Of a stretch of 37,886 nt of DNA, positions 1 through 35,686 are shown in pieces (position 1 is the first letter of the stretch; each line of letters opens with the position of its first letter). Where the stretch lies: the NCBI GenBank assembly GCA_964058845.1, contig CAXKVR010000502.1, forward strand, positions 1 to 37,886, read 5' to 3'. The stretch is from Carex sylvatica (Eukaryota; Streptophyta; Magnoliopsida; Poales; Cyperaceae). The notes below the pieces were generated by a model. The model was not told where the DNA came from and made no database searches. It worked only from the letters and a program-made list of their open reading frames with translations. Made by a program: the position numbers and the translations under genes.

Positions 1-3000
1 TCAAAGCACTTGGTAATCAGCAACCACAGCCTTGTGTTATGTGTGGAGACGAAGGGCATGAGTATGAGAATTGCCCGCTTACGCAAAGGGATGAAGGGCC
101 CGAGCAAGTTAATTCTCTCAACAGTGAACCATCATACTTCCCAAAACCTCCTTTCAGCCGAACCTATTCCAAAGACCCGATTGAACAACAGAATTGGAGG
201 TGGAAGCAAAACAATCCCACACAATTCAACAACAATCCTTCTGGCAGCAACAATAACAACCGCAACTTTTACAACAATGCTGCATTCAATAACTCAAACA
301 ACAACCGACCACCATATTCTGGACCATCTAAGCCCTATGTTGCCCCTGCAGTGGAAAACTTCATGCATGAACAAGGGAAGATGAATCAAATGCTTTTCGA
401 ACAGATGCAAACGATCAGTGCTCAATTGGCAAGTTTGGCCCAAAACAAACCTCAAAGTGGGAGCCAAACCGCACCACCACAACCTGGAATGCTACCAAGC
501 CAACCAGAGATTAACCCCAGGGGAGAAGCCAAAGCGGTGACGTTGCGAAGTGGGACACAGTACCAAGGACCAGCCATACCTGTCGAGCCAGAAACAGATC
601 ATACGGTCCGTACGAATCCCATACGGCCCGTACCAACACCCCCTGTGATTTCCGAGCAGTCAGAACCTGAACCAACTGAAGTTGTGACTGAGACAACAGA
701 CCATACGGTCCGTACAAATCCCGTACGGCCCGTACCGAATGAATCTGACAGACAGAAAAAGAAGGTGACCGAGAAACCACCGCCCTACCGGCCACCAGTA
801 CCATTTCCACAGAGACTAGCCGAAACCCGACTCAATGAACAATTCTCAAACTTTCTTGGAGTTCTCAAGCAATTGCACATTACCATTCCATTTACCGAGG
901 CTTTGACCCAAATGCCAACCTATGCTAAGTTTCTCAAAGATATCCTATCCAATAAACGAAGCTTGGGGGGGCATGAGACGGTGAAATTGACTGAGCAGTG
1001 CAGTGCCATCCTGAGAAATGAACTTCCACCGAAATTGGGAGATCCGGGTAAATTTTCCATTCCATGCACAATTGGCAAAGCAACCATCCGACAAGCTTTA
1101 TGTGATTTGGGGGCTAGTGTGAGTCTCATGCCGCGAACTATCTTCGAACGAATGGGTGTAGGCGAGCTTAGACCTACACGGATGACTTTACAACTTGCGG
1201 ATTCTTCGGTGAGACTACCACTTGGCATAGTGGAGGATGTACCGGTTCGAGTCGGTAAGTTCTATGTGCCCGGTGATTTTGTTGTGATGGAAATGGAGGA
1301 AGACAAGGAGGTCCCTATTATTCTAGGACGGCCGTTTTTGAGAACCGCCGGGGCGCTAATCGATGTGAAAAATGGGACTTTAACCTTGAACATTGGAGAT
1401 GAGAAAGTTCACTTTCAAATCGACCGAGCAATGAAGTATCCTGCTCAACCCGAATCGTGTTATATGGTCGATGTGATTGATGAATTAGTTGAAGAGAAGT
1501 TAATGGAGCAAATCAACAACTCTCTAAGGTATCATTCTGATTTTTTATCTGATTTGCAGGCTGAAACAGGCGATCTTGAGAGAATTTGCGCAGCAGACAC
1601 GACACCTGTCTGTCTGGAAGATTTTTCGTACGGGCCGTACGCAGATCATACGGACCGTACACCAGATGAATTTCAAACCGAGAAGCTGGAGATTGAGAAG
1701 GAACCAAGAATCCAGTCTGACACTGAGGCATACGGTCCGCACGAAACTCATACGGGCCGTACAAAAAGCCAGACAGCACAGATCACTCCCGAATTAAAAC
1801 CTCTCCCAGCCACTCTCAGGTATGAATTCCTTGACTTAGAAAAGACATATCCTGTAATTGTGAATGCAGGATTGACCCCTGACCAAACCGCCAAGCTCAT
1901 GGAGAAGTTGAAAATCCACAAAGGCGCGATTGGGTATTCTATCAAGGACTTGAAGGGGATCGATCCAACCACTTGCACACACAGGATCTTGCTAGAAGAC
2001 GACCACAAGCCTTCAATTGAACACCAAAGACGGCTCAACCCGAATTTAAAAGAGGTAGTAAAGAAAGAAATTTTAAAACTTTATGAAGCAGGTATCATCT
2101 ACCCGATTTCTGACAGCAAATGGGTGAGTCCCGTCCATGTGGTTCCCAAGAAAGGAGGAGCAACAGTGGTGAAAAATGAGAAAGATGAGATGATTCAAAC
2201 ACGCGTTGCAACCAGTTGGAGGATGTGCATAGACTATCGAAAGCTCAACGCGGCTACGCGCAAGGATCACTTCCCCTTGCCATTTGTCGATCAACTCCTT
2301 GAAAGGCTTGCTAACCACTCATATTTTTGTTATCTTGATGGTTATTCAGGTTTCTTTCAGATTCCCATTCACCCGCAGGATCAAGAGAAGACCACATTCA
2401 CATGTCCATACGGTACCTACGCATACCGTAGGATGCCTTTCGGTCTTTGCAATGCACCTGCGACTTTTCAGAGAGCTATGATGGCTATTTTTTCTGAATT
2501 TATTGAAAAAGAAGTTGAAATTTTTATGGATGATTTTTCTGTATACGGTACTTCTTTCGATTCTTGTTTGGCTAATTTGTGTAAGATTTTGCAGAGATGT
2601 GAAGAAGTTAATTTAGTCCTCAATTGGGAAAAATATCATTTCATGGTCCAAGAAGGAATTGTCTTGGGACATGTTATCACCTCTAGAGGTATAGAGGTTG
2701 ATAAAGCAAAAATTGAGGTGATCGAGAAACTCAAAATTCCAACAAATGTCAAGGGGGTTCGAAGTTTTCTTGGACATGCCGGTTTTTATCGCCGTTTCAT
2801 AAAAGACTTCTCAAAAATTGCGAAACCTTTGACCAATTTACTTATTAAAGATTCTGATTTTATTTTCACTGATGATTGTGTCAAGTCTTTTTGCAGTTTA
2901 AAGGAAGCTCTTATCTCTGCACCTATCTTACAACCGCCAGATTGGTCACTACCATTTGAGCTGATGTGCGACGCAAGCGACTATGCAGTCGGAGCAGTTC

Positions 3001-4691
3001 TGGGGCAACGGAAAGACAAAAAACCGTGTGTTATTTACTATGCTAGCAAGGTGCTAGACCCGGCCCAAATGAACTACACCACAACCGAAAAGGAGCTTCT
3101 CGCCATTGTATTTGCTCTCGACAAATTCAGATCATATCTGGTGGGCTCGAAGATAGTGGTCTACACAGATCATGCCGCACTAAGGTACCTCTTAAGTAAG
3201 AAAGATGCAAAACCAAGATTGATTAGATGGATTCTTCTTTTGCAGGAGTTTGATCTCGAGATAAGGGATACGAAAGGAGTCGAGAACTCTGTGGCGGACC
3301 ATCTGTCACGTCTTTATTGGGAAGAAGAGACCACAATTAAACTCCCAATCAACGACTCATTCCCAGATGAACAACTCTTTGAAATCAGTTCTGATCTGGA
3401 TGAAATCCATACGGGCCGTACAGAAATTCATACGGCCTGCACAATCCAACATACGGACCGTACACAAATTCATACGGGCCGTACAAATACCAACCAGACC
3501 AAACAGCAAACTCCCTGGTACGTCGACATCGCGAATTACCTGGTCTCTGGAGTTTTGCCCGCTACAATGTCCCAACAACAGAAGAAGAAACTAAGGTCGG
3601 ATTCCAAGTACTACTTTTGGGATGAGCCTTACCTCTTCAAAATTGGAGTCGATGGCGTATTCCGATGTTGTGTACCACTTGAGGAAACAGACTCTATTCT
3701 TGCACATTGCCACTCGTCCGCTTATGGAGGACACTCTTCATTCTCTAAGACCACTGCCAAGGTATTACAATCTGGTTTCTTTTGGCCTTCTCTTTTTAAA
3801 GATGCAAGATCTTTTGTTATAGCTTGTGATAGGTGCCAAAGAACTGGAAACATGACAAGACGAAGTGAGATGCCTCTCAACTTTATTCTTGAGGTCGAGA
3901 TTTTTGATGTTTGGGGCATCGATTTCATGGGTCCATTTCCCTCTTCTCAAGGGAATGAGTATATTTTGGTGGCGGTCGACTATGTATCAAAGTGGGTCGA
4001 GGCCATGGCGTGCCGCAAAGCTGACTCAAATTCGGTAAGAAAGTTTTTCAATGAGATCATTTTCCCTCGTTTTGGGGTGCCTCGAGCTGTCATTAGTGAC
4101 GGAGGCAAGCATTTCATCAATCGACAATTCAAAAAACTCTTGAGCCGACATGGGGTGACTCACAAGGTATCAACTTCTTATCACCCTCAAACTAATGGCC
4201 AAGCTGAAATTTCTAACAGGGAAATCAAGTCGATTTTAGAGAAAACAGTTGCAAGGACAAGGAAGGATTGGGCTTTCAAGCTGCATGATGCACTTTGGGC
4301 CTATCGCACTGCATTCAAGACACCGATTGGCATGAGCCCTTACAAGCTGGTATATGGAAAGCCATGTCACCTTCCCGTTGAAATTGAGCACAAGGCATTT
4401 TGGGCCACAAGAGCGATCAACATGGACCTCCTCGCAGCTGGAGAAAAGCGTATCCTCGACTTGCATGAGTTGGAGGAAATGAGGTTGCATGCGTATGAGA
4501 ATGCGAGATTTTACAAGGAAAAGACGAAGCGATTGCATGACCAGCGCATTTCACCTCACCAGTTCAAAGAGGGAGATCTTGTACTTTTATTTAACGCTAG
4601 ATTGAGAATTTTTCCAGGTAAACTCAAATCGAGATGGTCCGGCCCATTTCAGGTGAAGAAAGTGTACCCCTTTGGAGCAGTTGATATCTAG
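1..4691 (+). CDS. Athila-type Ty3/gypsy gag-pol polyprotein (5' partial, premature stop)
   Basis: Polyprotein of an LTR retrotransposon. The frame is open from the first bases, so the true start lies upstream. Domains in order: a gag zinc knuckle of the form CX2CX4HX4C (about 36-80); a low-complexity Asn/Pro/Gln linker; an aspartic protease with active-site DLGAS (1104-1118) and ILGRPFL flap-side motif (about 1320-1340); reverse transcriptase with catalytic FMDD (2523-2534); RNase H with acidic residues in CDAS (2970), EKELLA (3093) and YTDHA (3168); and integrase with an HHCC zinc domain (about 3700-3835), a D-D-E triad (Asp 3921, Asp 4098, Glu 4206) and a GPF-type tail (about 4620-4690). 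FMDDFSVYG and DLGAS fit Athila elements (family knowledge). The TAG at 4689 interrupts a frame that otherwise continues to TAA at 4809-4811 through a typical gypsy integrase tail, so the ORF has lost about 40 residues. Three linkers carry palindromic repeats (listed separately). No other lesion is visible in the window. Confidence 0.96.
600..736. repeat. palindrome cluster 1: two pairs in the gag-protease linker
   Basis: Four 15-bp odd palindromes of the form CATACGG-N-CCGTACN start at 600, 620, 702 and 722. Pitch within each pair is 20 bp and between pairs 102 bp. All four cores (TACGGNCCGTA) are exact. Centre bases are T, C, T, C. The first of each pair is read as HTVRT and the second, two bases out of phase, as (I/V)RPVP. 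About 45 bp around the two pairs is similar, so a local duplication is possible here. Confidence 0.95.
1627..1763. repeat. palindrome cluster 2: two pairs in the protease-RT linker
   Basis: Copies start at 1627, 1647, 1729 and 1749, repeating the 20-bp pitch and 102-bp pair distance of cluster 1. Three cores are exact. The 1729 copy has CCGCA for CCGTA. Reading frames differ from cluster 1: the first of each pair reads YGP(Y/H) and the second HT(D/G)RT. The DNA between the pairs is unrelated to that in cluster 1. Confidence 0.95.
3408..3485. repeat. palindrome cluster 3: tetrad in the RNase H-integrase linker
   Basis: Four copies start at 3408, 3429, 3450 and 3471, an exact 21-bp pitch. Three cores are exact; 3429 is degenerate (CGGCCTGCA). 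At 21 bp the copies stay in one frame and give a repeated HTxRT peptide separated by two variable residues. Confidence 0.95.
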
Positions 4692-4811
4692 AGTACAGAA
4701 AGTGGGACCTTCAAAGTAAATGGTCAGCGTCTCAAGCACTACGTTGCTGATCACTTGATGAGTGAGCGGAGTGTGCAGTTTCTTTCTGACCCCGCTCCAG
4801 TGGAAGTTTAA
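4689..4811 (+). pseudogene. integrase C-terminal tail beyond a nonsense codon
   Basis: After TAG (4689-4691) the same frame stays open for about 39 codons to TAA at 4809. It encodes a stretch containing GTFKVNGQRLKHY, the usual end of plant gypsy integrases. The stop is therefore a point mutation rather than the natural terminus. Whether the shortened integrase is active cannot be read from sequence. The tail beyond the GPF motif is the least conserved part of the enzyme. Confidence 0.85.
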
Positions 4812-4822
4812 AGTTGCACGGC

Positions 4823-4870
4823 GGTCTAGCTAAAGACCTAAAACGAGCGCTTCTTGGGAGGCAACCCAAG
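4823..4870 (+). promoter_or_regulatory. conserved post-pol hairpins of an Athila-type element
   Basis: Two short stem-loops lie just after the original pol terminus. The first has GGTC (4823-4826) pairing with GACC (4835-4838). The second has CTTGGG (4853-4858) pairing with CCCAAG (4865-4870) around AGGCAA. A 'GCGCT...GGGAGGCAACCC' block after pol recurs in many plant Athila-like elements (recalled, not searched). A role in RNA processing or in expression of the third ORF is inference. Confidence 0.5.
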
Positions 4871-5007
4871 CACTTTTAAAATCATTATGTTTAGTCATTT
4901 CTTTTACTTTTGTTTTAGTTTTATATTAGTTTAATTTTGACTTTTCAATTTGTAGTTGTTATTTTTCAATTCTGAGCAGACATGAGAAGTAACCATTTCT
5001 GGGAGTT

Positions 5008-5043
5008 GGTACGGTCCGTACTATATTTCATACGGGCCGTATG
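5008..5043. repeat. palindrome cluster 4: pair after pol
   Basis: Two exact-core copies start at 5008 and 5029, a 21-bp pitch. The second, CATACGGGCCGTATG, is symmetric over its full 15 bp. This pair lies outside any coding frame I support, so protein-level selection cannot explain it. Confidence 0.93.
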
Positions 5044-5581
5044 GGAACCATTCGGCACAGAGCCTCAAGGGGCACGGCAGAACCTCAAAGGGCGCGACCT
5101 TTTCTCTTCACATCCCTTCGACTTAACTCCCGTCCTTTCGGTTAGACCCTCTTCCCTTTTAAACCCGACCCCCCCGACAGACTCTACCCCACACCACCTC
5201 CTTTTTGTCGTTTTCTTCCTACGGACCGAACACCACCCCGTATAACCAAAACCCTAGCCGCCGCAACTTCTCCTCCGCCGCTCTCCGCCTCTAGCTACCC
5301 ACCGGCCGCCCACTCTCCGCCACCTTTCTATCCGCCTTTAGCGGATCGCTGCCACCTCACCTCCGCACCACCCTTCTCTTTTCCACCGGTCACCGATCTT
5401 CTCTAGCAGCTCACCACCACCGGTCACCATCTCTAGCAGAGCACCACCGCCCTCGTTCGCTGCTACACCCTCGTGATTCCCTCCAAGCCGCACTACAAAT
5501 CCCTCGCCGCCGACAACTTTTCTACCAAGACACCGACCAAACCCTACCAGCCGCCTCCTTCCCCTCTGAGCACACACCAGC

Positions 5582-5660
5582 CCTACGGCCCGCACAGACT
5601 CCCCATCCAGGCCGTACCAACCACCGTCCGACCCGTACAAATCCCTCTCCGGGCCGTACC
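5582..5660. repeat. palindrome cluster 5: eroded tetrad ahead of ORF3
   Basis: Four degenerate copies lie at 5582, 5604, 5625 and 5646, pitch 22, 21 and 21 bp. The first has both half-sites with one change. In the other three the right half (CCGTAC) is intact and the left half has decayed. Spacing matches cluster 3 although the sequence has drifted. The array ends 17 bp before the ORF3 start codon. Confidence 0.7.
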
Positions 5661-5677
5661 ACTTCCTACTGACCGCT

Positions 5678-6790
5678 ATGTCTGGTGAGCGCCGTCAAAA
5701 GCGGCGCCAAGACCGCTCCCCCACACCACCCCGTCATCCCTCACCAGAGCCCTATGACTCCGGCTCTGACCGCACTTCCTCTGGTGAATACATCGACCGC
5801 GCCGACCGCTTCGCGGCACGGTACTTTGAAATGCCCACTCGTCGGATGTACGAGAACTTCATCTCTTTACAACGGCGAGTATTCGAGAACACTGCCATGG
5901 TCCACCTCGACACACTCCACGCTCTTGGAGTCGAGGATGATTTCATCCTTCTCACCGCTGGAATTGGGTTTACCATGGATTTCTGGAAACTCCACCATCC
6001 CGCCTACGAGATGGACACCAAGGAATTCCTCTCCTCCCTCGAGCTCAAGTTGGACAACCAGGATGTCCACTTCATCAAATTCAGGCTGTGTAATCGCACC
6101 CATCGCGTCTATCTCTCTTCTCTGCGCGAATGGTTCGGTTTCCATCGCGAGCCCACTACTGACACTCTCAGTTTCCGACCTGGGTGGGATCGAGATACCT
6201 TCTGGGCCATGATCACCGGCTGCCCTCGCTCCGCCAATGCATCATACCGAGCACGCTACATCCCTCACCCGGTTCTTCGTATCATCCAGCGCGCCCTTGC
6301 TTCTACCATCTTTGCGCGCGGTGAGACTCAGAACCGCGCCAACACCGTCGACCTCATACTCATGGATACCATGCTCCGTGCCGACTCCGAGTATCCAGAC
6401 TTGGCCCTTCTCATGGTCCAGCACTGGATTGGGCAGCAGTCCAAAACCAGGCCCGGTGGCAAGATCAAAATTGGGGCTTATGTTGACGTCATTAAGCAAC
6501 GCCTCGGATTGGGGGCGTATCCGGGCCGAGACTTATGTCCTGGCCCCACTCTTCTGGATCCTGACAGCTTCCGCCAAGCTCTTTTCATCAATATCTCCCG
6601 TGGCCCAGCCGGTCATTCTGATTACTACGACTGGCGTTTTGTCGACGGCTCTTCCCGCCGCCTTCCATTCGGCCCATCCATCTCCGTGGTGGATCTCCAC
6701 CTGGTTGGTCTCTCCCCCTCCTCCCTCGGACATTCCCAGCTCCTCCTCTCAGCCACCCACATCTGGGTTTGCACGCCATTGCCCAGCTGA
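5678..6790 (+). CDS. Athila-type third ORF (env-like position), truncated by frameshift
   Basis: A 370-residue ORF between integrase and the 3' LTR, where Athila elements carry their extra gene. It starts at ATG 5678 with a charged, Arg/Pro/Ser-rich N-terminus, then a folded-looking region with blocks such as ARYFEMPTRR, FWKLHHPAYEMDTKEF and ASTIFARGETQNR. These recall the Arabidopsis Athila ORF-1 family from memory; no search was run. I see no clear signal peptide or transmembrane helix, so 'env-like' is only positional. After about residue 345 the reading becomes low-complexity and stops at 6788-6790. The expected C-terminal part continues in another frame, so one indel probably lies at about 6700-6785. 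The function of this family is not established. Confidence 0.8.
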   Translation: MSGERRQKRRQDRSPTPPRHPSPEPYDSGSDRTSSGEYIDRADRFAARYFEMPTRRMYENFISLQRRVFENTAMVHLDTLHALGVEDDFILLTAGIGFTMDFWKLHHPAYEMDTKEFLSSLELKLDNQDVHFIKFRLCNRTHRVYLSSLREWFGFHREPTTDTLSFRPGWDRDTFWAMITGCPRSANASYRARYIPHPVLRIIQRALASTIFARGETQNRANTVDLILMDTMLRADSEYPDLALLMVQHWIGQQSKTRPGGKIKIGAYVDVIKQRLGLGAYPGRDLCPGPTLLDPDSFRQALFINISRGPAGHSDYYDWRFVDGSSRRLPFGPSISVVDLHLVGLSPSSLGHSQLLLSATHIWVCTPLPS

Positions 6791-7004
6791 CCCATCTCTT
6801 AGGGATCTCTACTCCCTCATGACTGACATCAGGGACACTCAGCTACAGCAGGGCCGTGACATCACCGCCATCCAGCAGCAGACAGCTCAGCACACCTCTC
6901 GCCTGGATGAGATTAGTGTCTCCATGTATGACTGTGCCGAGCGCCTTGGCGACATCGAGGACCAGTTTCGTGACTGGCGCTTCGACCCCTCCTCTGACTA
7001 CTGA
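6700..7004 (+). pseudogene. ORF3 C-terminal part in a shifted frame
   Basis: In the frame ending at TGA 7002-7004, a Pro/Ser-rich linker is followed by a Gln-rich helical stretch beginning PADPSLRDLYSLMTDIRD, with QQGRDITAIQQQ and a C-terminal FRDWRFDP. A coiled-coil tail of this kind is usual for the third ORF of Athila-like elements (recalled). No ATG precedes it at a sensible place, so it is best read as the end of the preceding ORF cut off by an indel. The exact shift point cannot be fixed without a relative to align. Confidence 0.7.
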
Positions 7005-7476
7005 TCAGGTTTTTCCCTACCCCGGCTTATTTATTTTTCGATTACATGTCTTGAAGCATTGAGGGCAATGCTCGGACTAAGCTTGGGGGGGGTGATTAGT
7101 TATTTTTCTTTATTTTGCATTTAGTTTGTTTTCGTGTTTTGCATGTCTTGAGGATTAAATTTGTGTGAATTGCGAGAATTAGGGTCAATTTGGGAAATTG
7201 GAAATAACCACACATTTGGTTGAAAGAATTGTAAACGATAGTCTGTTTTGGGACTTTGTGGGATTGAATTGAATTGTGACAAGAAAGCATTTGAAACCGG
7301 ACTATGCCTTGTAAAAATAGAAAAATGAGATTTCAAAGTAATAGAAAGATTGGGACATCCATTGGTATGAATGAATATCATTGGATGTGTGTATTCATGA
7401 TGTATACGAAGAGAAAAGATGGAGAATATAAGAGTACTGGCAATAAGACGTGTTAGGCGCCTTTGAGCTCGTCTCC

Positions 7477-7522
7477 CATACGGACCGTACACCTATAAAA
7501 AAAAAAAAAAAAAAAAAAAAAC
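7477..7522. repeat. single palindrome copy followed by an A tract
   Basis: The copy at 7477-7491 has an exact core with centre A. It is the only well-kept copy with no partner. The place where a partner would start (7497-7498) is the first base of a 26-base A run. Confidence 0.85.
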
Positions 7523-7898
7523 CGAAAAGAGCCTTTACAAACATCAACACATGTAGTCCGTGACTTTCTGACCTAAGCTTGTTCCAAGCTTGGGGGAATT
7601 TCCAACCACAAATGAGGGCATAAATTTGGTAAAGAATGAACTATTGATACATTTGATTGCTTAATTCTTACAAATAGCATTACATTCTTGAAGTTAGAGT
7701 TTGATCAATTGAGTTGTGGGGTGAATTAAAGTTGACCAAAGGAAACCAAGTTACTATCTGAAATGACTCCAATGGATTTCTAACGAACGCAAAATCATGC
7801 ACCTTTTTCCTCTTAGTAGATTAAGTTGCATTTAGGTAAGTCCAACAACCCGAACCACACCTAAGTTAGAATTTTTGCTTGAGGACAAGCAAAGTTCA

Positions 7899-7912
7899 AG
7901 CTTGGGGGAATT
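7899..7912 (+). promoter_or_regulatory. polypurine tract of the 3' LTR
   Basis: AAGCTTGGGGGAATT-type tract (about 7899-7912) directly abutting the TG that begins the LTR. In LTR elements this primes plus-strand DNA synthesis. Two similar AAGCTTGGGGG tracts occur upstream, at 7079-7092 (eight G) and 7586-7598. Confidence 0.8.
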
Positions 7913-8081
7913 TGATATCTCCATATTATATCTGAATTATGGTCCTAATTTACAATGAAACCTGTGCTTTAAAGCCTATTAATGTGGACTTTTTACTTAT
8001 ATTTCGATGAAATGTGGTACTGCTATGTTTTGTTTGGTATTTTGCAGGAAAAAGGGCGAAAAACTGGTTCTGACAACTTTT

Positions 8082-8218
8082 CATACGGCCCGTATGATAT
8101 TCTGTGCGGGCCGTACAAGAACTGCCCAACCACACAGAAGGATCCACAACAGAGGCACAAAGTCTCCAAGTCAAAGCCCAGGCATACGGGCCGTACGGGA
8201 TCTCGTACGGGCCGTACA
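8082..8218. repeat. palindrome cluster 6: two pairs in the 5' part of the LTR
   Basis: Copies start at 8082, 8103, 8183 and 8204. Pitch is 21 bp and pair distance 101 bp, nearly the same geometry as clusters 1 and 2 in pol. Three cores are exact; 8103 has TGCGG for TACGG. As the LTR start is the U3 region, this array lies where enhancer or silencer sites would sit. Confidence 0.95.
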
Positions 8219-8851
8219 ACGCTGATTCGAAAAATCCAGCTGGAATCTGAATTGAGCACGATTTGAGGAGCCGAAAAGGAAACCCCTCCAGGCGTGATCT
8301 GGGGCATTAAAGGAGATATTCCACAGCAGGAAAGGGGATTAATAGGCAATCAATCAATAACTTTAGGGGGAATTCATTCTATCAATTGGTGGTTGCTAGG
8401 TTTTGGACGAGGGGAAAAGAAGAAGAGAAGGGAAGAACGCGAGTTTTCCACGGATCTTCGGATTTTCCACTGTTTTGTCATGAACTCTTTTATTTCTTGT
8501 TATTTGTGTTATCTCATGAACATGAGTAGCTAATTTACTTAGTTTCTAGGGGTAAGATGTAGTTTCTAGTTTAGCTTTGCTTGTGTGCTACTTGGATTTT
8601 GTGTTGAACGCTTTGTTTTTACTTTGTTATGTAGTATTTTTATTGCTCTATTTGTGCTTGCTTGAATCTGATTAGTCATCCCGTTAGATGAATGCGCACA
8701 TCTAAGTGTTAGGAGCCAAGTCTATGAAATTCATTCCAACTGAATAAAGTATATGAAGTAGGGTGAAACCAAGGAGTACCCGAAAGGCGAAACTTTCCTT
8801 GAGGCGAAAGTCCTTGGATACTTTTAGTAAACTAACAAGTAACTTAGATAA

Positions 8852-8949
8852 ATTAGGCCAAAATGCGAAAGTTGAGGTTTAACGCATCTAAGAGGGAAGT
8901 ACTTGAGTCCGGTAATCGGGTATTAGGCCAAAATGCGAAAGTTGAGGTT
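8852..8949. repeat. 28-bp direct repeat in the LTR
   Basis: An identical 28-bp segment beginning ATTAGGCCAAAATGCG occurs at 8852-8879 and 8922-8949, 70 bp apart start to start. Confidence 0.9.
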
Positions 8950-9030
8950 AGGTATCTAGATCTGGTCAAAAGAAATCCTAAACACAGAATCAACACAGAA
9001 AACAGTAGCTGCAGCATTAACTTGAGATCC

Positions 9031-9066
9031 CATACGGACCGTACGGGAATCTGTACGGGCCGTATG
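9031..9066. repeat. palindrome cluster 7: pair near the LTR 3' end
   Basis: Two exact-core copies start at 9031 and 9052, 21-bp pitch, about 320 bp before the LTR end. They face cluster 6 across the LTR. Confidence 0.95.
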
Positions 9067-9383
9067 CCTTGAGACTGAACAGAAATGAAATCTGAACCCT
9101 GGAAACTCCTTTTTATCAATTGGAAACAACTTTAATTATCTTTTATCGTCTTTTAATCAGTAGAATTGTTAGAACTAAAACCAAACCAATTTCTCTCACT
9201 TCTAGAATTTCAAGTGATTTTAGGATAAGTCTAGTGTTTTTATTCCGTCCCTGTGGATCGATACCTGAGCATACTCAACGACAGGATAGTACACTTGCTA
9301 TCTGAATTGACAGAGTATAACAAAGGTTTAAAAAGTATAGCTTGCTATACTGAGACTTTTTGGCATATATTCTTGTGCGATCA

Positions 9384-9878
9384 AGTAACGCTACGCTACT
9401 TCGCGAATTAAACAGGTTGTTTTAATTCACGCTCATATCTCTAGTTTCGAAGTTCAAATAGCCGATTCAAACCGTTAGATGTTTAATCTATATTAAAATG
9501 TGCTTGCAGGCCAAATTTTATATTTTTTGAAATTTTTTTATGGTTTGAAAATCGCTGTTTTTATTAAAATTCTGCACCATTAAAAAACAGCGATTTTCTG
9601 AATTTTTTTACTATTTATTAAGCCAATTTGAAAATCCTTGATCCAACGGTGGCTTCTGATTTTACTGTTTTGTTAAGCCACCGTTGGATCAGCGATTTTC
9701 AAAGTGGCTTAATAAATAGTAAAAAAAAATCAGAAAAATATAAAATTTGGTCTCCAAGAACATATTAATATGGAGAACAAGATGAACGGTTCCGATCGAC
9801 TATTTGGACATTGAAAATATAAAAATGAGTTATAAGCATATGTGGAGATATGCTTATATAAGCATAGTAGCTAATCTC
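9384..9878. mobile_element. rearranged fold-back MITE next to the LTR
   Basis: The left part (9384-9600) looks like one arm and the central hairpin (TTGAAAATCGCTGTTTTT region) of one fold-back element. From about 9600 it continues into the arm, centre (GATCCAACGGTGGC and its complement) and other arm of a second element, ending GTAGCTAATCTC at 9878. The right half closely matches the complete copy at 19346-19770. The retrotransposon ends exactly where this composite begins. Confidence 0.6.
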
Positions 9879-9897
9879 TCTCTCTCTCTTTATATGT

Positions 9898-9918
9898 GTA
9901 TATATATATATATATATA
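9898..9918. repeat. (TA)n microsatellite
   Basis: An AT dinucleotide run between two fold-back elements. It is part of a recurring (TA)n(GA)n edge of this MITE group. Confidence 0.85.
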
Positions 9919-10341
9919 GAGATGGACTTGGGTGAGCCATGGCTCACCAAGCATTTGTACTCCACGCCGTATTTTCATTTTGAAAGTCCAAACGACCGAT
10001 CCGAACCGTTAGATGTGATCTCTATATTGAAATGTGCCTGGAGACCAAATTTTACATTTTTTGGAATTTTTTTACTATTTATTAAGCATTTTTTTAAATT
10101 GCTGTTTTGCTGTGAACAGTAAAAAACAGTAAAATTTTCTGGACCATCGGATCAGCAATTTTAAAAAATGCTTAATAAATAGTAAACAAATTCCAAAAAA
10201 TATAAAATTTGGTCTCCAAACACATTTCAATATGGAGAACAAGATGAACGGTTCGGATCGGTTGTTTGAATTTTCAAAATGGCTAAAATGAGCCATGGCT
10301 CACCAACGCAAAATAAGCCATGGCTCATTTTAGCCCAACTC
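9919..10341. mobile_element. fold-back MITE (GAGATGGACTTGGG / GAGTTGGGCTA ends)
   Basis: About 423 bp, inverted-repeat along most of its length. The left arm runs through GAACCGTTAGATGTGATC and GGAGACCAAATTTTA, the centre has ACTATTTATTAAG and its complement, and the right arm returns TAAAATTTGGTCTCC and AACGGTTCGGATCGG. Its ends carry GAGCCATGGCTCA palindromes. The target duplication is obscured by flanking TA repeats. Confidence 0.75.
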
Positions 10342-10393
10342 TATATATATATATGTATATGTATATATGTGTATATAGATATATATGTATATG

Positions 10394-10439
<46 letters not shown>

Positions 10440-10455
10440 GAGAGAGAAAGAGAGA
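10342..10455. repeat. compound (TA)n, (GT)n, (GA)n microsatellite
   Basis: A TA/TATG stretch, a GT run at about 10401-10428, then (TA)n and (GA)n leading into the next MITE. Confidence 0.9.
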
Positions 10456-10879
10456 GAGATGGACTTGGGTGAGCCATAGCTCACCAAGCGTTTGTACTCC
10501 ATGCTGTATTTTTATTTTGAAAGTCCAAACGACCGATCTGAACCGTTAGATGTGATCTCTATATTGAAATGTGCTTGGAGACCAAATTTTATATTTTTAG
10601 GAAGTTTTTTACTATTTATTAAGGATTTTTGAAAATTATTGTTTTGCTGTGAACAGTAAAAAACAGTAAAATTTTCGGAACCATCGGATCTGCAATTTTA
10701 AAAAATACTTAATAAATAGTAAAAAAATTCAAAAAAAATATAAAATTTGGTCTCCAAGCACATTTCAATATGGAGAACAAGATGAACGGTTCGGATCGAT
10801 TGTTTGAATTTTCAAAATAGCTAAAATGAGCTATGGCTCACCAACGCAAAATAAGTCATGGTTCATTTTAGCCCAACTC
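10456..10879. mobile_element. fold-back MITE, sister of the 9919 copy
   Basis: About 424 bp with the same ends and inner module as 9919-10341 and high similarity to it. The (TA)n(GA)n tract on the left (about 10429-10458) is mirrored by (CT)n(TA)n on the right (10879-10906). This suggests the microsatellites belong to, or arose from, the terminal repeats. Confidence 0.75.
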
Positions 10880-10907
10880 TCTTTCTCTCTCTCTCTATAT
10901 ATATATG

Positions 10908-11311
10908 GAGTAAGGCTAGGGTGCTATGGGTTGCATAGAGGACTACGGTGCTACGACTTAATATTCGAGTTTTTAAAATCCTAACGGTCGATTCGAACCG
11001 TTCATCTTGTTCTCTATATTAATATGTGTTTGGAGACCAAATTTTATATTTTTTGAAAATTTTTTACTATTTTTTTAGATAGTTAGAAAATCAAATATCT
11101 GAATGGTGCACAATTTTTTAGATCAAGTGATTTTCTACCTATCTAAAAAAATAGTAAAAAATTTCCAAAAAATATAAAATTTGGTCTCCAAACACATATT
11201 AATATGAAGAAAAAGATGAACGGTTCGGATCGACCGTTAGAATTTTGAAAAGTTGAATATTGAGCCGTAGCACCGTAGCTCTCTATGCAACCCATAGCAC
11301 CCTAGCCTTAC

Positions 11312-11313
<2 letters not shown>
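10908..11313. mobile_element. fold-back MITE (GAGTAAGGCTAGGGTGC ends)
   Basis: About 406 bp with nearly perfect ~40-bp terminal inverted repeats: GAGTAAGGCTAGGGTGCT on the left, AGCACCCTAGCCTTACT on the right. The inner module GGAGACCAAATTTTATAT and its complement is shared with the neighbours, but the central loop has GATAGTTAGAAAATC instead of the CCAACGGTGGC type. Flanks are TA-rich, so no target duplication can be fixed. Confidence 0.8.
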
Positions 11314-11376
<63 letters not shown>

Positions 11377-11381
11377 ATGTA

Positions 11382-11456
<75 letters not shown>
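11312..11456. repeat. 145-bp (TATATG)n / (TATGTG)n microsatellite
   Basis: Three blocks: TATATG units, then TATGTG units (about 11380-11417), then TATATG units again. It abuts the right end of the MITE. Open frames through it (poly Tyr-Val) are artefacts of the repeat. Confidence 0.95.
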
Positions 11457-12748
11457 TCTCAGCATGAAATACGTGAAAACTTTGAACGAGCTTTGAATCT
11501 GAGAACAGATCCTGAATTGGAGATTAATGCACAGTTGTCTACTATCTCGAGTGTGTTGTACACAGTATACAAATTAATTTAAAATTAAGCTCATATTTCA
11601 AGCCGCTTGATCACGTTTTGGTGATGAATAACTAACCAGCGTGAAACATTGTCTGTGCACAATTATGGCATATATGATATATTTAATTAGGAATAGAAAT
11701 CGTGACTGGACCGTTTTGTTTGTTCTCTATTTTCAATGCTTTTGACCTAGCTACATTTTAAGGCACAACAATTAATATTCTGTCCATGTGCATACTTCCA
11801 GTTGAAATTTGTTTATGGCAAATGTGTGGTCCCAACTACGGGAAAAAAACTTCCTCTTGAAATATAAAGAGTGATCAGAAGCCACTTGATCTGGACCAGC
11901 TACTATTATTTTGCAAACAAATTTCAAATTTCAAATTTCGTACATCCATATTACTCACTTCACTGATTTTCCAGTGTATATATATATATCAATTACCCAC
12001 ATACTCATCATGTACTTAAGAAGACCATAGTAATTACAAAAGCGTATAAATCTTTGAATTATTATTAATGAAACCATAAAGGGATCAATTAAACCATAAG
12101 GTGGACTATTCAGCGATTAGCAAACTAATACGGAGCAGAGTTTTGAGTAGATCAGATGTTCAGTATTTGGACTCAGGAAATTGTAACTCTTAGCCTTGAA
12201 TTAGATTATCAATTTTTGTAGTATTTTCTAATACTGGACTGTGTTTCAAGGTATGACAATCGTCGAGCCTATTTCCGCTGTCATTGTGATGGCAGAGATT
12301 CTATGGCACACAATCTCGATCATCCAATTCAAATCGAACGCACATGATATGATCTGGCCTTTTAGATGATCCAGATTACGTGTCATAGTTTTATGGCAGA
12401 TGGCTGAATCGACAATTATCCAATGTACTAACTAGTATGTGTGTGAGTGTGTGTTTGCTGCAATGAAATGTAAGCAAGGTATGGATGGTTTATTAAACTA
12501 TTCATTGATAATAGATAGCCTCCTGTTGAAGTAGTGTTGCATGGACTGGCCTAATTGTCCAATAAAGGCCTCCCTCTAGAGGAGAGTAGTATTGTTGTAG
12601 ATCCACTAATTAAGTCTTCTCAAGAGGCTCTCTCTTTTTGGGACGAGCTACAACAAGGCCCATATGCCATTTAATACTTATCCAAGTCCAAGAGCTACAA
12701 CAAGGCCCATACCATACTATACCATACCATATAGGAAATAGTAGATAG
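11457..12748. other. intergenic DNA, no gene seen
   Basis: AT-rich DNA with no supportable ORF. It contains an imperfect direct repeat beginning GAGCTACAACAAGGCCCATA at about 12645 and 12689. Confidence 0.6.
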
Positions 12749-15854: not shown

Positions 15855-16277
15855 GTTGGCTACTCTACTTACATAAGCATATGAGGTTATATGCTTATAA
15901 GTCATTTTTTCATTTTCAATATAAAAAAAAATTGATCTGAACCATTAAATGTGATCTCTATATTGAAATGTGCTTGGAGACCAAATTTTACATTTATCTG
16001 AATTTTTTTACTATTTATTAAGCCACTTTGAAAATCGCTGATCCAACGGTGGCTTCTGATTTTACTGTTTTGTTAAGCCACCGTTGGATCAGCAATTTTC
16101 AAAGTGGCTTAATAAATAGTAAAAAAAATCAGAAAAATGTAAAATTTGGTCTCCAAGCACATTTCAATATAGAGATCACATCTAATAGTTTAGATCGACT
16201 TTTTGGATTTTGAAAATGAAAAAATGAATTATAAGCATATACCCTCATATGCTTATGGAAGTAGAGTAGCCAACCTC
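15852..16277. mobile_element. fold-back MITE (GAGGTTGGCTACTCTAC ends)
   Basis: A 426-bp complete copy. GAGGTTGGCTACTCTACTT at the left and AAGTAGAGTAGCCAACCTC at the right are perfect inverted repeats. The whole element folds on itself around TTACTGTTTTGTTAA. Very similar to 19346-19770, but the flanks here are microsatellite, so no target duplication can be read. Confidence 0.82.
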
Positions 16278-16298
16278 TCTGTCTCTATATATATATAA

Positions 16299-16722
16299 GA
16301 GATGGGCTACGGTGAGCTATGGAGTAAAATGAGTTGGTGCTCCATGGCACTATATTTTTATTTTATAAATTCAAAGGACCGATCCGAACCGCTCAACATG
16401 ATCTCCATATTGAAATGTTCTTGGAGACCAAATTTTATATTTTTTGAAATTTTTTTACTATTTATTAAGTCACTTTGAAAATCGCTGATCCGATGATCTA
16501 GAAAATTTTACTGTTTTTTACTATTCATAGTAAAACAACAATTTTCAAAATTACTTAATAAATAGTAAAAAATTTCAAAAAAAAATATAAATTTAGTTTC
16601 CAAGCACATTTCAATATAGAGATCACATCTAATGGTTCAGATCGGTTGTTTGAATTTTCAAAATAAAAATACGACATGGAGTACAAACGCGTTTTACTCC
16701 ATGACTCACCGTAGTCAACCTC
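16299..16722. mobile_element. fold-back MITE (GAGATGGGCTACGGTGAGC ends)
   Basis: A 424-bp copy with end pair GAGATGGGCTACGGTGAG and CTCACCGTAGTCAACCTC. The inner module is shared with neighbours, and the centre resembles the 9919 type (TTTTACTG...CAGTAAA). Flanked by TA repeats on both sides. Confidence 0.75.
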
Positions 16723-16748
16723 TATATATACATATAGAGAGAGAGAGA

Positions 16749-17171
16749 GAGATGGACTAAAATGAGCCATGGAGTAAAACAACTTAGTTCTCCATGACAC
16801 TATATTTCCATTTTGAAAATCCAAACAACCGATCGGAATCGCTCAACACGATCTCCATATTGAAATGTGCTTAAAGACCAAATTTTACATTTTTTGAAAT
16901 TTTTTTACTATTTATTAAGTCACTTTGAAAATCACTGATTTGGCAGTCCATAAATTTTTAATGTTTTTTACTGTTCACAGCTAAACAGTCATTTTCAAAG
17001 TGGCTTAATAAATAGTAAATTTTTTTCAAAAAATATAAAATTTAGTCTCCAAGCACATTTCAACATAGACATCACATCTAACAGTTCAGATTGGTTGTTT
17101 GGACTTTCAAAATAAAAATATGGCATGGAGTACAAACACGTTTTACTCCATGGCTCACCGTAGTCAACCTC
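16749..17171. mobile_element. fold-back MITE, sister of the 16299 copy
   Basis: A 423-bp copy. The right arm is nearly identical to that of 16299-16722 (CATGGAGTACAAAC, then CTCACCGTAGTCAACCTC). The left end has diverged (GAGATGGACTAAAATGAGCC). Preceded by (GA)n, followed by (CA)n. Confidence 0.75.
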
Positions 17172-33265: not shown

Positions 33266-35686
33266 ATGAATATTGTGGCTACCATTAATACAGTGGAGAT
33301 GAATGTGATGTCTTATATTGGAATATGCATTGCAACATTTATTACCATATGGGTGTCAAATTGGATCTATAGATGGAGAAATCCAAAATGCATTAGTGGA
33401 GTTCTTCCACCTGGATCCATGGGACTCCCCTTTCTTGGTGAGACTATTCAGTTCTTCCGTCCGAATCCTACATGTGATGTCTCTCCTTTCATTAAAAAGA
33501 GAGAAAAGAGGTAATTTATTTAATTTGGTCATTTTAATGTTATCCTTTTATTTATACTATACAAGTATATATTTTACCAGTATGAAATTTTCTACAGTCC
33601 TAATTGCACCAAGTTTTTTGCATGCAGTGTACGCTTTTCTTACCAGATTGTTTTAAATTGCTTGTGCTTACTTGGAACTTTTCTCTCTTAATACATGTAG
33701 GTACGGGCCTATATTTAAAACAAACTTGATCGGCCGACCAGTGGTGGCAATAACTGATCCAGAGTTAATATATTATGTTCTAAAGCAAGAAGGCAAACTA
33801 TTTGAAAGCTGGTATCCAGACACATTTACTGAGGTATTTGGGCGAAATAATGTCGGTTCTCTCCATGGATTCATGTACAAGTACCTAAAAACCTTAATTC
33901 ATAGGCTGTATGGCCCGGAGAATCTCAAATCAGTTTTTCTTCCTGACATTGAGAAATCATGCCACACCACTTTCCAATCTTGGTCCAGCCAGCCATGCTT
34001 TGATTTCAAAGAAGCTATCTCTGTTGTAAGCACTCTAATACCTTCTTTATTATGCTCCAATACGTACATATTCTACTGATGATCTAATTAATTAATTAAT
34101 TAATTTGCTGTATGTTGATCTTCATTTAACTTTGTCAAATCTTAGATGATATTTGATATCACTGCTAAGAGGCTGATTAGCTATGATCCTTCTGGTTCGG
34201 TTGAGAATCTAAGAGGTTGCTTCGTTGCATTCATACGAGGATTAATATCTTACCCTTTTGATATTCCAGGGACGGCCTATCACCAATGCTTACAGGTACC
34301 GCACTAACATACAACTTGAAAGTATGAGAACAATTAATTAAGTTTCTAAATGGCCTTGTGGTCTGTGAGTTATTAATTTTATTATTTTTATTTTTATGCA
34401 AATTAAGGGGAGAAAAAGAGCGATGAAGGTGTTGAAGAGGATGCTGAAGGAAAGAATGAGCACAGCAGACAGGCAATGTGAAGATTTCTTCGACCTTGTC
34501 ATAGATGAGTTAAAAAAAGAAAGATCTCTTATGACTGAGCCAATTGCTTTAGACTTGATGTTTGTACTTCTCTTCGCGAGTTACGAGACCACCGCCTTGA
34601 CCTTGACTCTCGCCATGAAGTTCCTCTCTGACAACCCGAAAGTTGTACAAGAGTTGACAGTACGTGACCATTAATTTCATTAACAAATTTTACTTGGTTA
34701 ATTCTTAAATATATATATGTGCTAATGGAGGTAGCCTTGTTATATCAGGAGGAACATGAAGCAATTATAAGAAACAGAAAGGATCCAGACTCCGGTGTCA
34801 CATGGGCAGAGTATAAATCTATGACTTTCACTTCCCAGGTGAGCCAAATATATATTCCATGATTAATTATTCCTTAACCATATATATCATCATTAAGTTG
34901 CATGTAAACAAATATCAATTTGGACTAATATTCTGTTTTGTTTTGTTTTTTTATGATTTAAAGGTAGTATATGAGGCTGTCCGATTGGCGAACATTGTCC
35001 CAGTAATGTTCAGAAAGTCTTTGCAGGATTCTGAGGTTGGAGGTATGTTCTATTAATTGGTTCTAAACTTCTAATATCGCAAACACCCCAGCATTATAAT
35101 TATTGGCAACTCATTTCTCAAACATAAAAGAAGTTTGAAAAACTTACCATGTAGTAAACAACTATGTGGTTTTAATCAAGGAAATGAACAATAATAAATT
35201 GACACTAAAGTTAAGAGTTGACTTAAGGTAATTATATATGGTTGTTTGAACAGGATATACAATTCCACAAGGATGGGCAGTGATGCTGAGTGCGCCATCT
35301 GTTCATATAAACCCAGAGATATATGAAGATCCTTTAGTATTTAACCCCTGGAGATGGAAGGTTAAACCTGACATGACAGGAGGCACAAAACAATACATGG
35401 CCTTTGGAGGTGGATTGAGGTTTTGCGTAGGGGCGGATTTCAGCCGGGTCTTCATGGCCCTTTTCTTGCATAACTTGGTCACCAAGTATAGGTAATTAGT
35501 TGCTTCATTTTATGATCAAGATCAACATATTAATTAATTTTACTCGGGAAATAAACATTTGCTAATCTCTTATTTTGTTTTCTAATCTTTTCTAGGTGGA
35601 AAGCAGTTAGAGGAGGCAACATAGTTCGAACTCCTGGTCTCGGGTTTCCCGATGGATTTCACATTCAGCTCTTTCCAAAGGAATAA
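33266..35686 (+). CDS. cytochrome P450, CYP87-type (eight exons, apparently intact)
   Basis: Exons: 33266-33510, 33701-34025, 34146-34295, 34408-34659, 34749-34838, 34964-35042, 35254-35491, 35596-35686. All seven introns (89-211 bp) are GT-AG and phases join cleanly, giving 489 residues with no internal stop. The first ATG (33266) is chosen; Met12 (33299) is an alternative. An N-terminal membrane anchor (about residues 15-36) is followed by the hinge LPPGSMGLPFLG. P450 hallmarks: I-helix ASYETT (297-302; the family often has ASFETT), ExxR as EAVR (358-361), PERF-region FNPWRW (410-415) and haem loop FGGGLRFCVG with Cys438. The body (for example SWYPDTFTEVFGRNNVGSLHGFMYKYLK, split here: SWYPDTFTEV / FGRNNVGS) is strongly CYP87-like. 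It would be an ER-bound monooxygenase using a P450 reductase. Characterised CYP87 enzymes act on sterols and triterpenoids, including cardenolide-pathway side-chain cleavage and cucurbitane oxidation. The substrate here is unknown. Confidence 0.93.

Follow-up and report, generated by a model that had tools for sequence, protein, structure and literature searches.

The element and its palindromes

The window, i.e., the whole stretch of 37,886 bp that was analysed, starts inside an Athila-type Ty3/gypsy element, the 5' part of which lies beyond the window (Table 1). We assigned the element to Athila based on the order of its pol domains, namely protease (PR), reverse transcriptase (RT), RNase H and integrase, which is the Ty3/gypsy order, and on the ORF that follows pol. 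This ORF, called ORF3, matches the ATHILA family (PF03078, E 1.4e-17, Pfam); in the window's copy, its coiled-coil part lies in another frame, reaching position 7004. In the stretch between ORF3 and the LTR, we noticed by eye three copies of a polypurine-tract-like sequence, AGCTTGGGGG (7080-7097, 7586-7601 and 7898-7913). Athila4 and Calypso reportedly have an additional polypurine tract too (PMC2829016). Directly after the element, positions 9432-11470 contain nested inverted repeats, with arms of up to 198 nt that are 91% complementary, as well as TA and TATATG runs, and this region resembles stacked MITE-type hairpins. The remainder of the window includes a 450-bp tandem repeat of 2.7 copies (15953-17171) and an ORF (33672-34079) that presumably resembles part of a plant cytochrome P450.

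Table 1. Features of the Athila-type element in the window.
Feature	Position	Strand	Basis or remark
Partial gag-pol frame, 1550 aa	39..4691	+	ORF list and Pfam
Zinc knuckle in gag-pol frame			By eye
Protease	1059-1364		Pfam
RT	2184-2675		Pfam
RNase H	2940-3251		Pfam
Integrase	3672-4187		Pfam
Exact TACGG-N-CCGTA cores (n = 18)	602, 622, 704, 724, 1629, 1649, 1751, 3410, 3452, 3473, 5010, 5031, 7479, 8084, 8185, 8206, 9033, 9054		
Palindrome doublet, gag-PR linker (602, 622)	602..632	.	Same RT offset in clade B copy L049
Palindrome doublet, gag-PR linker (704, 724)	704..734	.	Same RT offset in clade B copy L049
Two doublets, PR-RT linker (1629, 1649, 1731 degenerate, 1751)	1629..1761	.	Core scan
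Four-unit array, 21-bp period, RNase H-integrase linker (3410, 3431 degenerate, 3452, 3473)	3410..3483	.	
Palindrome doublet, pol-ORF3 spacer (5010, 5031)	5010..5041	.	
Four degenerate palindromes (5584, 5606, 5627, 5648), directly upstream of ORF3	5584..5658	.	
ORF3, ATHILA ORF-1 family (PF03078), candidate palindrome reader	5678..6790	+	
Single palindrome, between ORF3 and 3' LTR	7479..7489	.	
Probable 3' LTR, TGATATC start after AAGCTTGGGGGAATT	7913..9430	+	By eye, from this one LTR; right border approximate
LTR palindrome doublet (8084, 8105 degenerate)	8084..8115	.	
LTR palindrome doublet (8185, 8206)	8185..8216	.	
LTR palindrome doublet (9033, 9054)	9033..9064	.	

An earlier note had described a palindrome repeated throughout the element, and our rescan confirmed this basic observation. 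All 18 exact cores that it listed were recovered, at starts 2 bp beyond those quoted, as were all seven degenerate copies (one or two mismatches; marked in Table 1). The rescan added core-like sites at 5220 (one mismatch) and at 2409 (two mismatches); the latter lies inside the RT domain and is probably a chance match. As had been claimed, the cores are confined to the element: positions 9,421-37,886 contain no exact core, none with one mismatch and seven with two. A first-order Markov model predicts 0.0018 exact cores in 9,420 bp, and in 200 simulated sequences, families of gap-1 palindromes with the same arms never exceeded three members. It also proved correct that all 18 exact cores lie outside the pol domains assigned by Pfam (PR, RT, RNase H and integrase). 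However, the description as a 15-bp palindrome was too strong. The symmetric core is real, but its symmetry covers only 11 bp, because the flanks outside it (left, A in 13 copies or G in 5; right, C in 15 or T in 3) are not fully symmetric.

Neighbouring copies are spaced by 20-22 bp, i.e., about two helical turns. The ten exact cores within the pol frame use all three codon phases (7, 2 and 1), and therefore selection acts on the DNA, not on the peptide; we rejected a protein-level cause of the repeats for this reason. We also scanned the host assembly (64 Mb, 950 contigs), where TACGGNCCGTAC gave 679 + 604 matches, versus 4 + 2 for the reversed control; a site with full symmetry is counted on both strands. 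Palindrome pairs exactly 20 bp apart numbered 127 in the assembly, versus 0 for the reversed pattern, and a 221-bp query around the RNase H-integrase array had 38 genome matches, the query itself included.

Spelling and conservation in related elements

An RT search of the host assembly listed at least 131 matches, among which Athila copies range from 100% to ~63% identity and other gypsy elements lie at ~40%. From these we selected copies and read their flanks: 30 copies in clade A (window included), four in D2, two in each of clades B, C, F and D1, one unassigned Athila copy and nine non-Athila stretches. The clades separate in an RT tree, in which the position of C is weakly supported (0.57).

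The repeated motif, or tag, is spelled differently in these clades. In clade B the dyad is CACGG-N-CCGTR, in clade C it is TTGCGG-N-CCGCAA (11 exact copies in L050 and 8 in L052), and D1 and D2 have the same spelling, AGTGCG-NN-CGCACT or AGTGCGG-N9-CCGCACT. Clade F (L051 and L064) has GGCCGT half-sites, an assignment resting on few sites. Genome counts for three non-A dyads were 256, 958 and 200, versus 0, 0 and 2 for reversed controls. Every clear dyad has CCG on at least one arm. The emphasis that the earlier note placed on CpG therefore stands only in part: the core common to the clades is CCG/CGG, and symmetry and spacing differ by clade. The unassigned Athila copy (L065, at C44, RT 83%) contains ACGCGA-G-TCGCGT and ATGCG..CGCAT pieces at 553-590, without a clear dyad.

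Regarding whether relatives carry the motif, the answer is mixed. The exact clade A core occurs once in one clade B stretch and twice in the other, and it is absent from L050-L055, six stretches of clades C, F and D, so that sister clades lack this palindrome as such, but they have dyads of their own at the same places. Dyads or half-sites in the spelling of the respective clade are present in the PR-RT linker of A (-450 to -328 relative to the RT start), B (-441 to -328), C (-575 to -410), D1 (-463 to -351) and D2 (-524 to -349). In five stretches, with degenerate sites included, spacings below 40 bp were 22 bp (12 cases), 21 bp (10), 20 bp (9) and 15 bp (2).

In most comparisons the tags decay more slowly than adjacent DNA, as was anticipated, but in one D2 pair (L053/L054) the two hardly differ. 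In the pol-ORF3 spacer of 30 clade A copies, including the window, pi is 0.042 in the motif, versus 0.289 in the 10 bp between the palindromes, 0.184 in the 20 bp before the doublet and 0.114 in the other 219 columns; 10.6% of 170 shifted masks inside this spacer reach an equally low pi, some of the spacer being conserved in its own right. For the RNase H-integrase linker array (30 copies, window included), the values are 0.038 in the motif and 0.068 in other columns. Two clade C copies differ at 1/51, 1/72 and 4/45 motif positions versus 18/148, 27/229 and 19/84 non-motif positions, and the two D2 pairs at 3/73 versus 20/147 and, in the pair with hardly any difference, 4/55 versus 18/183. The central base of the palindromes drifts, as does the DNA that separates the doublets, and sites from one linker to the next have the motif in common, not the flanks. 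Tag-bearing linkers diverge fast, which, like the weak D2 pair, slightly lowers our confidence in the reading of the tags proposed below. ORF3 diverges faster than every pol domain compared.

Clades A and B differ by a change that is repeated from site to site. We compared ten orthologous site pairs, whose choice is biased to the CACGG form because the B sites came from a CACGG scan (at most two mismatches). In all ten pairs, A has T and B has C at motif position 1. Positions 2-5 of these pairs are identical in 40/40 comparisons, nine pairs differ at the central base, and positions 7-11 agree in 7, 9, 10, 8 and 6 of ten. Outside the motif, 233 linker columns are the same and 219 different, and only 24 of 73 T's changed to C. 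Two A sites are not part of these pairs: 1731, for which the B counterpart likewise starts with C, and 3452, which B has lost. As all paired sites have undergone this one base change, these clades offer a ready test of protein-DNA co-evolution.

ORF3 as a candidate reader of the tags

The extra gene of Athila elements has long been called env-like. However, simple hydropathy found no transmembrane segment, as an envelope product of an endogenous plant retrovirus should have, in 10 ORF3 proteins (best 19-residue Kyte-Doolittle mean 0.74-1.47, with the window's own ORF3 represented by its truncated frame).

The earlier note had proposed that the palindromes are bound by a dimeric protein, without deciding on the factor, and had drawn an analogy to VANDAL elements, whose VANC proteins bind short motifs in them. 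For the predicted structure of an ORF3 domain, the best alignment is to VANC21 bound to its target DNA. ORF3 is thus predicted to share the fold of this DNA-binding protein, so the analogy gains structural support. However, it does not extend to a sequence match: DUF1985 (VANC) was not matched by any of seven ATHILA proteins, with E cut-offs of 1 for two of them and 10 for five, nor by the window's ORF3 at 0.001, and our other searches gave no sequence link between ATHILA and VANC either. We therefore do not class ORF3 with the VANC sequence family. The full-length ORF3 model gave structure matches mainly to the coiled coil, and this C-terminal part is predicted to be suited to dimer formation. 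A viral structure library gave no match at E 0.001.

Tags also occur where a complete ORF3 does not. The D2 copies L053 and L054/L060 retain ORF3-like sequence. A D1 element (at C140), whose open frame extends through RT and is 1874 aa long, has, at the place of ORF3, only a piece resembling the ORF3 C-terminal tail, a loss read in this one D1 copy; its 1.2-kb spacer contains 15 half-sites. Moreover, four of the nine non-Athila gypsy stretches (L043, L044, L045 and L047, from two families) have a D-type array block after pol. The captured block is ~82-84% identical to the D-type array of L057, in reverse orientation. The arrays lie at 6349-6789 in L044 and 6603-6836 in L043, and 72-bp tandem copies occur in L044 and L047. 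Between the two gypsy families, 63/64 half-site columns are the same, versus 158/193 other columns. Among the other stretches, L039-L042 contain neither GTGCGG nor CCGCAC, and the block is absent from L046. In L040, CACGGC and CACGAC (9 and 11 copies in the whole stretch) are mostly clustered at 7495-8148, perhaps as another array.

The most economical account is a clade-specific tag with an element-coded reader, where ORF3 is the reader and VANC the model. On balance, we think it probable that the palindromes are mostly conserved, clade-specific tags bound by the element's ORF3, which is predicted to have a VANC21-like fold and would therefore mark and de-silence its own family as VANCs do for VANDALs. 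The ORF3 of each clade would then bind the tags of that clade, two ORF3 dimers could sit on one face of the helix at a doublet, and binding may remove DNA methylation and so shield the element from silencing. We lean only slightly towards a broader proposal, in which the Athila "envelope" gene encodes a VANC-fold reader of palindromes along its own element, and in which this sequence-specific anti-silencing co-evolves with its tags base by base, while relatives that lack ORF3, and unrelated elements with pirated tags, exploit it. If ORF3 does read the tags, sequence-specific anti-silencing would not be peculiar to VANDALs, but would also be a device of plant LTR retrotransposons, and the CGG-CCG boxes of Sireviruses may be of the same class.

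Known systems and alternative explanations

The VANDALs of Arabidopsis resemble the present case in having a short motif that is repeated along the element and differs between related families, a turnover that the Athila tags also exhibit, and a fast-evolving accessory protein next to a conserved enzyme (PMC5735166, PMC10398659). In addition, VANC6 is reported to act on AT9TSD1, an unrelated element in which its motif is present (Hosaka et al., PMC5735166), which may be compared to the gypsy families with Athila-type arrays. However, VANDALs are Mutator-like DNA transposons rather than LTR retrotransposons, and the VANC motifs described are noncoding and of 8-9 bases, whereas the motifs here are palindromes that also lie inside coding linkers.

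The repeated-motif (RM) boxes of Sireviruses are clustered in the LTRs and upstream of env, and in 12 of 13 elements their consensus palindrome has a CGG-CCG core (PMC2829016). Many copies of such a palindrome are found here too, as CGG-N-CCG in clades A, B and C and as CG-NN-CG or CGG-N9-CCG in D. In contrast to this element, which is Ty3/gypsy by its pol order and RVT_1, Sireviruses are Ty1/copia, and the accessible portion of PMC2829016 reports no pol-linker sites for RM boxes and names no reader.

The main rival to an element-coded reader is a host factor, i.e., a host regulator or silencer that reads CGG..CCG dyads, with clades escaping from, or recruiting, different members of its family. 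We consider this unlikely, despite the presence of CCG/CGG in clear half-sites of all clades, the arrays kept by the ORF3-less D1 element and by unrelated gypsy elements, and the Sirevirus boxes found across several plants, which four Sireviruses without env keep in their LTRs (PMC2829016). Several spellings in one genome are unexpected for one host factor, the arrays extend to pol linkers, at a long distance from the LTRs, and escape from a silencer is expected to destroy sites, not to re-spell all of them in step. The clade-specific spelling therefore disfavours a single common host factor and favours a reader that the element encodes. As for specific candidates, CCGTAC resembles the core site of SPL/SBP proteins and GGNCC that of TCP proteins; both were rejected, as neither fits all clades.

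It is highly improbable, in our judgment, that the dyads are instead a signal in the genomic RNA, serving packaging, dimerisation or small RNAs. In D and F, where 5-9 nt separate the arms, the dyads could fold as hairpins, and the period of 20-22 bp is the length of small RNAs. However, a single base between the arms keeps the dyads of A, B and C from closing completely, a spacing that disfavours an RNA hairpin; arrays are moreover present in coding linkers, spacers and the LTR, without distinction, and the captured array of L043 and L044 is opposite in orientation to its source. Least credible is neutral spread of a functionless 21-bp unit by slippage or gene conversion, which the tandem doublets, the 72-bp duplication in L044/L047 and the D2 pair L053/L054 would fit, but which is disfavoured by the conservation of tags relative to local flanks in most comparisons, by the drift of central bases and between-doublet spacers, and by the common motif of sites whose flanks are unlike.

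Published Athila elements are of the same type, with a PF03078/Transposase_32-type ORF, and differ in that palindromic arrays are not part of the descriptions in the accessible portions of PMC11728184 and PMC12844716; according to these sources, the sunflower Athila aORF has a predicted nuclear localisation, and PMC12844716, from 2026, leaves open whether Athila ORFs shape methylation. Among accessible portions of open-licence literature, our search found no report of Athila palindrome arrays or of a VANC fold for ATHILA, and viral contigs gave neither an Athila relative nor a tandem palindrome. In other plants, we scanned 142 proteins, not all of which could be parsed, for linker repeats at the protein level; this set included 120 pol relatives, which were the best 120 among 7,939 matches. 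Seven proteins were flagged, and six were set aside because their parsed span, of 222-1026 aa, is not a linker. The protein that was left, P0098, a pol of Rhynchospora pubera, has repeated ACSSRPE units in its PR-RT linker, the only repeat-bearing linker among the parsed relatives.
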